This document shows positions 61,926 through 64,000 of a stretch of DNA of 64,000 nt, one piece after another. This stretch comes from Roseovarius sp. (GTDB lineage Bacteria; Pseudomonadota; Alphaproteobacteria; Rhodobacterales; Rhodobacteraceae), in assembly GCA_021775255.1 (NCBI GenBank), contig JAJFIA010000004.1:1-64000 (forward strand), given 5' to 3'. Under the pieces are notes generated by a model. The model had not been told where the DNA came from. It saw nothing but the letters and a program-made list of their open reading frames with translations, and made no database searches. Within the stretch, counting starts at the first letter, position 1, and each line of letters starts with the position of its first letter. The translations under genes were made by a program, and so were the position numbers.

Positions 61926-63227
61926 ATGTCTGATCCGGTAATAATGCTCAGCCTTCTGCTGGTCCTTCTGGGGCTTCTGAGCCTCGGCGTCTGGGTCGCG
62001 GTTGCGCTGATGTCGGTGGGCATTTTTGCCATGACATTCTTTTCCTCCGCCCCCGTCGGCCAAGTGCTGGCCACAACCATCTGGGGCCAAAGCCATTCCT
62101 GGGCGCTGGCGGCGTTGCCTTTGTTTATCCTGATGGGCGAGATTCTTCTGCGCAGCCGGTTGTCCGAGGACATGTTCAAAGGCCTCAGCCCCTGGCTGGG
62201 CCGTTTGCCCGGCCGGTTGCTGCATGTCAACATTCTGGGCTGTGCGATCTTTGCCGCCGTCTCAGGCTCTTCCGCGGCCACCGCCGCCACCATCGGCAAG
62301 ATGTCGGTGCCCGAACTGAATGAGCGCGGATACCCTGAGCGACTGGTGATCGGCACCCTTGCGGGTTCGGCCACGCTTGGCCTGCTGATCCCGCCGTCGA
62401 TCATTTTGATCGTCTACGGCGTGGCCACGGATCAATCCATCGCCCGGCTGTTCATCGCCGGGGTTTTGCCGGGGCTGATGCTGGTGGGGATGTTTGGCGG
62501 CTATGTCATACTGCGCGCGCTGATGAACCCCGCCCTGATCCCGCATGAGGACGCGCAGTTTACCCTGTTGCAAAAAATCAAAGCCTCGCGGCGTCTGATC
62601 CCGATCATCGCCCTGATTGCCGCGGTCATCGGCTCGATCTATACCGGCATCGCCTCGCCCACCGATGCCGCTGCATTGGGCGTGGTCTTTTCGATGATCC
62701 TCGCGTGGCTTTCCGGCACGTTCAGCCGCAAAATGCTGATTGAGGCCATCATGGGGGCCACCGTCACCTCGGCGATGATCGCCTTCATCCTAGCGGGGGC
62801 GGCATTTCTGACCGTCTCCATGGGCTTCACCGGCCTGCCGCGCAATCTGGCGGCATGGATCGGCTCGCTGGGCCTCACGCCTTTGGCCCTGCTCGCGGCC
62901 CTCACGGTGTTTTTCATCCTGCTGGGGTGCTTTCTCGATGGCATATCGGTGGTGGTGCTGACCACCTCGATCATCATGCCGATGATCACAAGTGCGGGCA
63001 TTGATCCCTTGTGGTTCGGCATCTATCTGGTGATCGTGGTCGAGATGTCGCAGATCACCCCGCCGGTGGGCTTCAACCTTTTTGTCATTCAGGGGCTTAC
63101 CGGCATCAACATCCTGTCAATCGCGCGTGCCGCCCTGCCGTTCTTTCTGTTGCTGCTTATAGCCGTGGGCCTGATCATTGCCTGGCCACAGATCGTAACC
63201 TACCTGCCGGGCCTGATGAACCGCTAG
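61926..63227 (+). CDS. TRAP transporter large permease
   Basis: A 433-residue membrane protein of the DctM family with about 12 helices. Signatures include FAAVSGSSAATAATIGKMSV, GTLAGSATLGLLIPPSIILI and the C-terminal MSQITPPVGFNLFVIQGLTG. It couples ion flow to uptake of the ligand brought by the binding protein at 60367. Length is standard, without the loop seen in dctM at 16142. Confidence 0.93.
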   Translation: MSDPVIMLSLLLVLLGLLSLGVWVAVALMSVGIFAMTFFSSAPVGQVLATTIWGQSHSWALAALPLFILMGEILLRSRLSEDMFKGLSPWLGRLPGRLLHVNILGCAIFAAVSGSSAATAATIGKMSVPELNERGYPERLVIGTLAGSATLGLLIPPSIILIVYGVATDQSIARLFIAGVLPGLMLVGMFGGYVILRALMNPALIPHEDAQFTLLQKIKASRRLIPIIALIAAVIGSIYTGIASPTDAAALGVVFSMILAWLSGTFSRKMLIEAIMGATVTSAMIAFILAGAAFLTVSMGFTGLPRNLAAWIGSLGLTPLALLAALTVFFILLGCFLDGISVVVLTTSIIMPMITSAGIDPLWFGIYLVIVVEMSQITPPVGFNLFVIQGLTGINILSIARAALPFFLLLLIAVGLIIAWPQIVTYLPGLMNR

Positions 63228-63270
63228 GCAGACCGCCGCAACATCCCAGATCCTGACGCATCATTCAGAA

Positions 63271-63291
63271 CGTAGGGTGGGTGAAACCCAC
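63271..63291. repeat. Copy of the GTAGGGTGGGT repeat
   Basis: CGTAGGGTGGGTGAAACCC(AC) repeats, in inverse orientation, the hairpin at 53581-53604. It lies 44 bases after the TRAP large permease. Together these are two copies of a common interspersed bacterial hairpin. Confidence 0.55.
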
Positions 63292-63393
63292 GCGCTGCTA
63301 GACTTTGCCGGGACAGAATTTACCGGACTGCTCCAAAAATAGGTCAGTTTCCCTTATGCATTTGCTGCATAGCGGCATTGCCCAAACTGCGTG

Positions 63394-63419
63394 TTGTGCA
63401 GGCACGCCACAGGTATATC
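63394..63419 (+). promoter_or_regulatory. Possible stress promoter of the DUF1127/sRNA unit
   Basis: TTGTGC (63394-63399), 14 bases, TATATC (63414-63419), about 72 bases before the DUF1127 start. In Rhodobacter sphaeroides the equivalent unit is read by RpoHI/RpoHII, which use short spacers and a TTG -35. Assignment to a given sigma factor is a guess. Confidence 0.35.
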
Positions 63420-63490
63420 TAAGGCTCAAGAAACGAGACAATTTTAACCACTGACAAAATGCCAGTGCCCAACTGAAAAAGGAGCCGATC

Positions 63491-63706
63491 ATGGCATTCG
63501 CAACCAAAACACTTCCCGCCACATCCGGCTTGGCCGTTGATTTCAGCGCCGCAATCTTTCACGCATTTCAACGCCTGCAAGACCGCCGCGCTTACCGTCA
63601 GACAGTCCGTGAACTGGCTAATCTGTCGCAGCATGAGCTGAATGATCTGGGCATGAACCGCACAACCATCCGGTCCGAAGCCCGCAAAGCCGTTTACGGC
63701 AACTAA
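63491..63706 (+). CDS. DUF1127 small protein (CcaF1-like)
   Basis: A 71-residue protein whose C-terminal half is a DUF1127 domain: RRAYRQTVRELANLSQHELNDLGMNRTTI, written here in two parts around residue 48, an arginine-rich helix pair. The start has AAGGAG 6 bases upstream. In Rhodobacter sphaeroides a DUF1127 protein (CcaF1) is encoded just ahead of the CcsR1-4 small RNAs and acts as an RNA-binding factor in their maturation. Here too hairpins with CTCCTCCC loops follow, which supports the same role. Confidence 0.85.
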   Translation: MAFATKTLPATSGLAVDFSAAIFHAFQRLQDRRAYRQTVRELANLSQHELNDLGMNRTTIRSEARKAVYGN

Positions 63707-63717
63707 ACCAAAGAAAT

Positions 63718-63829
63718 GCCGGGGCCGTCAAAGCCCCGACGGACAGCGATCGGCCCACTCCTCCCCCCCTGGGGCCGAACGCTTTTGAGAAACGGTGATG
63801 CCCACCTCCCTGGCATCACCGTTTTTTTA
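63718..63829 (+). ncRNA. Cuckoo/CcsR-type small RNA region downstream of DUF1127
   Basis: Three hairpins follow the DUF1127 stop. A: CGGGGC (63720-63725)/GCCCCG (63733-63738). B: TCGGCCC (63750-63756)/GGGCCGA (63772-63778) with a 15-base loop holding CTCCTCCC at 63758-63765. C: a terminator with stem ACGGTGATGCC/GGCATCACCGT (63792-63822) and loop CACCTCCCT. Loops with CUCCUCCC are the defining trait of cuckoo RNAs (CcsR in Rhodobacter sphaeroides), which are processed from the DUF1127 message and may mimic anti-Shine-Dalgarno sequence. Only one or two units are present, fewer than the four in R. sphaeroides. 5' processing sites are unknown. Confidence 0.75.
63791..63829 (+). terminator. Intrinsic terminator of DUF1127/sRNA unit
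   Basis: AACGGTGATGCC (63791-63802) pairs perfectly with GGCATCACCGTT (63812-63823) over a 9-base loop, followed by a run of T. A textbook rho-independent terminator. It overlaps the last codons of the opposing EamA gene. Confidence 0.92.
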
Positions 63830-64000
63830 TGCGCCGCAGTAATCGCCCGTCGGTGATCACAAGGCCCATGGAAATAAGGGCAAAGCCGATAATGGCCCCC
63901 GGCCCGAGGGCCTCGTTCAGGAAAACCACGCCAATCCCCACGGCAAAGGGCGGGATAAGCAGTGTGACCAGCATCAGGTTGGCCGCCCCGGCGCGGGCAA
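63816..64000 (-). CDS. EamA/DMT transporter, 3' end only
   Basis: Partial gene entering from the right edge. The 61 visible C-terminal residues contain NLMLVTLLIPPFAVGIGVVF, LNEALGPGAIIGFALISMG and LVITDGRLLRRIKKR, the last two helices of an EamA repeat and a basic tail. The stop (TGA, plus-strand TCA at 63816-63818) lies inside the terminator of the converging sRNA unit, so the last codons are the complement of that stem and its T run. The start is outside the window. Confidence 0.85.
   Translation of the reverse strand, partial: ARAGAANLMLVTLLIPPFAVGIGVVFLNEALGPGAIIGFALISMGLVITDGRLLRRIKKR

Follow-up and report, generated by a model that had tools for sequence, protein, structure and literature searches.

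The window, which is the whole stretch of 64,000 nucleotides of Roseovarius sp. DNA that was analysed, contains a cuckoo/CcsR-type (CIN1) operon that scores below the cut-offs of the Rfam families. The joint reading, to which we assign a probability of roughly 0.8, is that of a reduced-array DUF1127–cuckoo operon of a Rhodobacteraceae-type bacterium, transcribed from a class of promoter that carries a double PhaR-type operator, partly eroded here. The gene, the hairpins, the homology to arrays of relatives, the best fit to units 3 and 4 of these arrays and the conservation of the operator were established directly. The features of the locus are:

63365–63375, plus strand: box 1, CTGCATAGCGG, a PhaR-type palindrome with one deviation from CTGCNNNGCAG (sequence)
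63394–63399, plus strand: probable −35 element TTGTGC, also the left half of box 2, which in the window lacks its right half GCAG (sequence)
63416–63421, plus strand: probable −10 element TATCTA, with a spacer of 16 nt to the −35 element (placed by eye from a spacing alignment with TATCTT-like elements of relatives)
63480–63484, plus strand: ribosome-binding site AGGAG (sequence)
63491–63706, plus strand: DUF1127 gene, CcaF1-like, 71 amino acids (PF06568, 41.7 bits, cut-off 23.3)
63720–63738, plus strand: motif-less hairpin (fold; its position is that between units 2 and 3 of four-unit arrays, 3′ regions compared by eye)
63745–63783, plus strand: cuckoo unit A, with CTCCTCCC in its loop at 63758–63765 (fold; best fit to unit 3 of relatives; model R2)
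63787–63828, plus strand: cuckoo unit B and intrinsic terminator, with CACCTCCC in its loop at 63803–63810 (fold; fits unit 4; covarying stem)

The short DUF1127 gene lies directly 5′ of the RNA array and in the same orientation, the first hairpin starting 13 nt past the stop codon. Both array loops are anti-Shine–Dalgarno, with CUCCUCCC and CACCUCCC as the loop motifs of the RNA, and the 126 nt from 63704 to 63829 fold at −56.1 kcal/mol, as compared to −35.2 ± 3.8 kcal/mol for shuffled sequences (n = 200; z −5.5; none of the 200 as stable). The original prediction of a DUF1127 gene with a ribosome site, followed by hairpins with motif-bearing loops of which the last is a terminator, is borne out by the PF06568 match and the AGGAG element, by the position of each motif within a loop, and by the stem of the hairpin at 63787–63827, with 16 pairs in the centroid structure and T7 directly after it. 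A terminator scan did not report this last hairpin, probably because its 9-base loop exceeds the limit of 8 of that tool, and a sigma-70 promoter scan of 62900–64000 predicted no promoter. The motif-less hairpin at 63720–63738 was absent from the original prediction. On the minus strand, a convergent frame at 63816–63974 of the window, with 52 amino acids from an inner ATG, overlaps the terminator tail and resembles the end of a DMT/EamA-type transporter (name by eye).

A search with Rfam models, by which the cuckoo assignment was to be checked, returned no family at its cut-off for the region 62000–64000. The best match was ar14, with 44.3 bits against a cut-off of 58.8 (RF02344); ar7 reached 37.4 bits against 60 and CcsR1 23.4 bits against 65.3 (RF02791). 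The exact 9-mer CCTCCTCCC (CCUCCUCCC) is absent from the locus, and its three sites in the genome all lie on the reverse strand and elsewhere. Rfam membership was also rejected as a definition of the group, since a scan of 20 sources, including 17 loci of this gene, gave a single one above a cut-off, namely L025 with ar14. As the locus stays below the Rfam cut-offs, homology was tested against relatives instead. A DUF1127 protein match was found in 70 of 84 same-genus genomes, its own included. Of 73 protein match rows, 70 were used, leaving out G053:C303 (the sole match in that genome) and the second matches in G025 and G059, so that the 70 same-genus loci, among them the window, represent 69 of the 70 matching genomes, with G055 present twice. 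Two loci of distant relatives (L018 and L019), the sole yield of a search of named metagenome-assembled genome (MAG) contigs, bring the set to 72; L019 has neither CTCC hairpins nor boxes and was retained in the counts.

The comparison with these relatives argues for homology. Covariance model R2, built on units 3 and 4 from 33 sequences with the window left out, matches 63743–63827 with a score of 63.8 bits and an E-value of 5.9e-14 for the 64-kb window (the E-values of the search tool are rough). At least two CTCC-loop hairpins occur within 520 nt 3′ of the gene in 71 of the 72 loci, the exception being L019, and since control hairpins with a GGAG loop numbered 0 in 64 loci, 1 in 5 and 2 in 3, the hairpin pattern is more than chance. 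In the terminator unit, both partners are changed in five of ten pairs (24 cells, as compared to a shuffle mean of 6.1; 31 sequences), and the loops retain CTCC while this stem covaries. RNAalifold recovered the terminator stem alone from the same number of sequences, since unit 3 was misaligned.

Arrays of this type usually consist, as judged by eye, of unit 1, unit 2, a motif-less hairpin, unit 3 and unit 4 with the terminator. An automatic count of units based on terminators misfired on unit 1 of several arrays, and loops were counted instead. Under the stricter loop rule, the 72 loci, window included, have four units in 47 cases, two in 14, three in 5, five in 3, six in 2 and none in 1, although L038 and L087 are under-counted in this way. 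With two units as compared to four in 47 of 72 loci, the array is indeed shorter than usual, as had been proposed. When profiles of the single units were made from the 47 four-unit loci, unit B scored 29.0 bits with unit 4 and at most 0.1 with the others, and unit A scored 7.3 bits with unit 3, followed by 3.9 with unit 2, 2.0 with unit 1 and 1.2 with unit 4, a modest margin that is weak in bits. This fit to units 3 and 4, together with the motif-less hairpin in front of them, suggests that the window holds a reduced four-unit array, most likely after loss of units 1 and 2. As far as can be judged by eye, it is alone among the 72 loci in having just the 3′ pair, and ten other two-unit loci (L060, L064, L065, L067, L070–L075) retain the opposite, 5′ pair.

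The additional suggestion that the array shows the minimal form of the family does not agree with these observations. An ancestral minimal cuckoo array, from which longer arrays arose by duplication, would explain why the window and 13 other loci are counted as having two units, but we consider such an origin very improbable. The units of the window match units 3 and 4 best and are still preceded by the motif-less hairpin. Among the other two-unit loci, ten hold the opposite pair, and two more (L038 and L087) are under-counted as mentioned above. Furthermore, of the 21 other genomes with a counted array in a tree of PhaP and PhaR, 15 have four units, two have more, three have three and one has two. 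This tree comprises 28 of 30 loci (L214 and L227 were dropped, having no readable PhaR) and places the window genome on a long branch beside G002, the deep order being not resolved. Thus, the original reading holds as a DUF1127–cuckoo locus of CcsR layout that is shorter than usual, but neither as a member of an Rfam family at cut-off nor as a minimal founding form.

Regarding the promoter, the relatives share a conserved double operator composed of CTGCATRGCAG and TTGTGCAnnnGCAG. Alignment of the starts of 45 loci by eye shows, in nearly all of them, a block TGCTGCATAGCAGCATTG, then ATTGTGCAnnTGCAGCAT and then a TATCTT-like −10 element; L040, L052, L056 and L068 are divergent (by eye). Among the 71 loci with upstream sequence (L075 has nothing before its start and was left out), box 1 as CTGCN3GCAG is present in strict form in 54 and in relaxed form in 66, with 0.4% and 1.0% in shuffles, respectively. 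Box 2, TTGTGCN2-4GCAG, occurs in 68 of them, the window not being included (shuffles 0.07%), and in 62 loci the two boxes start at a distance of 28 or 29 nt from each other, a spacing found in 0 of 21,300 shuffles. At 28 DUF1127 genes followed by fewer than two CTCC hairpins, strict box 1 was found in eight cases (L092, L097, L100, L101, L106, L108, L111 and L115) and box 2 in none, and two of the three DUF1127 genes with arrays in the same comparison set had box 2. Box 1 alone is therefore not specific. The explanation that the operator is a mere feature of DUF1127 promoters could be rejected with respect to box 2 only, and the link between DUF1127 genes and a box 1 operator may be wider.

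The window promoter shows the TTG and TAT elements that have been described as RpoHI/RpoHII elements for another DUF1127 gene (PMC10673084). The strict double operator pattern has no match in its own genome: box 1 of the window has one deviation and box 2 is without its right half. The same CTGC...GCGG deviation recurs in a box of the phasin promoter of this genome. The double operator is thus partly eroded in the window, and the putative control by PhaR would probably be weakened there.

The distribution of the operator was further examined in a survey of 198 genomes from 198 genera of the family. The strict double operator was found in 112 of these, with 117 matches in total (summed from the table) and 0 for a reversed-pattern control, and was absent from the other 86. 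When 30 of the 117 sites were examined, 29 had two or more CTCC hairpins in the 650 nt that follow, and at the thirtieth (L271) the sequence ends after 365 nt; two such hairpins were found in 0 of 30 cases on the upstream side as well as on the reverse complement. A crude DUF1127 motif was present at 10 of the 30 sites. The CcsR1 model gave matches at E ≤ 1e-6 in 134 of the 198 genomes, nine of them above cut-off, and these nine loci (L172–L180) all have a TGC-N4-GCAG dyad 5′ of the DUF1127 gene, with strict box 1 in four.

Arrays without a DUF1127 gene make it possible to tell the role of the RNA apart from that of the protein. The DUF1127 protein search gave no match in 14 of the 84 same-genus genomes, and in 11 of these (G003, G007, G012, G030, G031, G046, G047, G057, G066, G075, G078) an array was detected by model R1, which covers units 3–4 and was built with the window included. 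Of the other three, which are 65–85% complete, G040 and G041 gave no R1 match and G056 a weak one, unlike a cuckoo promoter. In 12 stand-alone loci (L233–L242, L246, L248), a similar promoter leads directly into the array, with no ATG-started ORF of more than 26 amino acids in between. Box 2 and a box 1-like palindrome are present in all 12, the latter starting 28–30 nt before box 2 in four and 20–21 nt before it in eight. A divergent gene resembling an Mrp ATPase (by eye) adjoins the stand-alone arrays that were looked at, as well as at least 35 of 70 DUF1127-linked loci according to a crude motif search, and a convergent cobalamin riboswitch lies some hundreds of bases past the array in several loci of either kind (L021, L022, L024, L027, L032, L038, L233, L239). 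Because of this common neighbourhood, the stand-alone arrays are probably the same locus minus the protein gene, and the comparison of genomes indicates that DUF1127 is optional for arrays. The window copy has a different location, next to TRAP transporter genes. Genome G047 has a second stand-alone array, L248 (G047:C4:80821-80903), with two units only and with PhaR-type boxes, and this one is a truly minimal cuckoo gene.

The stand-alone arrays also bear on the explanation that the hairpins merely structure and terminate the DUF1127 mRNA at its 3′ end, without giving rise to a trans-acting RNA. The last hairpin is a terminator, as such an explanation would have it, but arrays behind a similar promoter in 11 genomes without an ORF of the length mentioned, the retention of CTCC in loops next to a covarying stem, and the processing of the R. 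sphaeroides RNAs CcsR1–4 from this same position (PMC8625941) make it improbable.

The likeness of the double operator to the PhaR site of R. sphaeroides, CTGCNNNGCAG (PMC12542648), and to the PhaR-bound mmgR promoter of Sinorhizobium meliloti suggests that cuckoo promoters are controlled by polyhydroxybutyrate (PHB) status via PhaR. The mmgR promoter is shifted by PhaR in EMSA, with CAATTGTGCACCGCAGCATTA as the box (PMC12542648), which is nearly the same as box 2, and its control depends on a dyad between −35 and −10 (PMC8401924), which is the place that box 2 occupies. In the window genome, phaR (TIGR01848, 153.6 bits, cut-off 109.45) adjoins a phasin-like gene (24.8 bits with Pfam Phasin_2, narrowly missing the cut-off of 24.9) and also lies beside a PHA synthase gene (a partial match, below the full-length cut-off). 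A phasin match was obtained in all 84 genomes, and the promoters of the best 30 of these 84 invariably have two relaxed boxes, 26–29 nt apart. The core of box 1, CTGCATAGCAG (CTGCTATGCAG on the other strand), is found between phaC and its divergent neighbour in the window genome (names by eye). The exact 15-mer TGCTGCATAGCAGCA, of which this genome has none, occurs 33 times in 31 of the 84 genomes: 29 occurrences have a cuckoo DUF1127 gene no more than 250 nt away, one is at a stand-alone array (G075), and the others are located before phaC in G006 (by eye), at a matching distance from the phasin gene in G055, and elsewhere in G053.

It can also be envisaged that a regulator other than PhaR, with a similar palindrome as its site, recognises the double operator, in which case the PHB link would be wrong and the cuckoo reading would stand. 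The half-sites of box 2 are four bases apart, as compared to three in the published PhaR site, strict CTGCN3GCAG occurs at eight of 28 array-less DUF1127 genes, and of the 15 positions in the window genome within one mismatch of TGCTGCANNGCAGCA, nine are neither at pha genes nor at the window locus; the remaining six comprise 63363–63377 and positions in the region of the phasin gene, phaR or phaC, one of which falls within the phaC frame. Nevertheless, the core sequence beside phaC and the 15-mer before phaC in G006, the paired boxes at nearly the same distance in 30 of 30 phasin promoters, and the resemblance of box 2 to a box that is shifted by PhaR (PMC12542648) make the involvement of a different regulator rather unlikely.

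We lean, with slightly more confidence than doubt, to the view that the cuckoo arrays of Rhodobacteraceae form the RNA branch of the PhaR regulon. In this view, PhaR would sit on the double operator and be titrated off by PHB granules, upon which anti-Shine–Dalgarno RNAs would curb translation of uptake and central-carbon functions. The phasin mRNA would join through its own CTCC-loop 3′ hairpin, and DUF1127 would be an optional passenger or helper, because whole arrays persist without it. No link of PhaR to CcsR or DUF1127 was found in the literature consulted, although the original cuckoo, CcsR and CcaF1 papers may mention the operator; PhaR and DUF1127 both occur in PMC9230146, where they are treated apart, and papers with PhaR together with CcsR, CcsR1 or CcaF1 were, judged by their titles, from other fields only. 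Cuckoo RNAs are known as stress RNAs, and the controls named for them in the sources consulted are stress sigma factors, the sRNA StsR, the protein of their own operon and RNases. The double operator, present in 112 of 198 genera, located before cuckoo arrays in 29 of 30 cases examined and similar to the paired boxes of the phasin promoters of the genus, offers a concrete and cheap test that would tie these RNAs to carbon storage, and control by PhaR, if true, would generalise the MmgR case of S. meliloti.

Among described systems, the window locus resembles the ccaF1–CcsR1–4 operon (CIN1) of Rhodobacter sphaeroides, with a 71-amino-acid DUF1127 protein in both. The ccaF1 gene is co-transcribed with the CcsR RNAs from an RpoHI/RpoHII promoter, with a Rho-independent terminator at the 3′ end (PMC10253847). 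The window differs in having two units instead of four, variant loops and a CcsR1 model score far below the cut-off; PhaR is not named in the CcsR literature consulted. With the ar14 sRNA family (NfeR1 of S. meliloti; RF02344) it shares successive hairpins with anti-Shine–Dalgarno loops, but members of that family have three hairpins with identical CCUCCUCCC (PMC10746234), whereas the window has two, neither with the full 9-mer. MmgR of S. meliloti (ar8 family) is likewise a conserved-motif sRNA, and its promoter is repressed by PhaR/AniA (PMC8401924, PMC12542648). Box 2 as found in the relatives of the window is closely similar to the mmgR box. Unlike the window array, MmgR is a stand-alone single 77-nt Hfq-dependent sRNA (PMC8401924).

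Transcription, processing, targets, the loss event and PhaR binding, which we infer, can be combined into one scheme. A single promoter (TTGTGC/TATCTA) would give a transcript with the coding region of the small CcaF1-like protein and with the terminator hairpin as its end. For CcsR, RNase E processing, stress control and action in trans are known (PMC8625941, PMC10253847, PMC8307010), and by analogy the 3′ part of this transcript would be cleaved by RNase E to yield one or two short RNAs. Their exposed CUCCUCCC and CCUCCC loops may then pair with Shine–Dalgarno regions of target mRNAs and lower translation. The family would probably be repressed by PhaR until PHB accumulates, besides being activated in an RpoH-type manner, and the window array would be derived from an ancestor with four units, of which units 1 and 2 were lost.

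A CTCC-loop hairpin also occurs just 3′ of the phasin gene in all 30 cases examined (L202–L231), followed by a terminator-like hairpin (by eye). The phasin 3′ region of the window genome (G000:C21:101537-101619) is the second-best ar14 match of that genome, and the weak R1 match L251 is a phasin 3′ region as well. This hairpin region may represent a phasin-mRNA-derived, cuckoo-like RNA. Other weak R1 matches (L247, L252, L253, L254, L256, L257) were rejected as being unlike cuckoo promoters (by eye). In three of them (L247, L254, L256), a conserved stretch around TTCCGTGAGTGGTGGCTTT...GGGAACA is present on the matched strand, about 100–150 nt before position 1500. This stretch, which has no Rfam match at cut-off and stands behind a gene that looks LuxR-type (by eye), is possibly another structured RNA.
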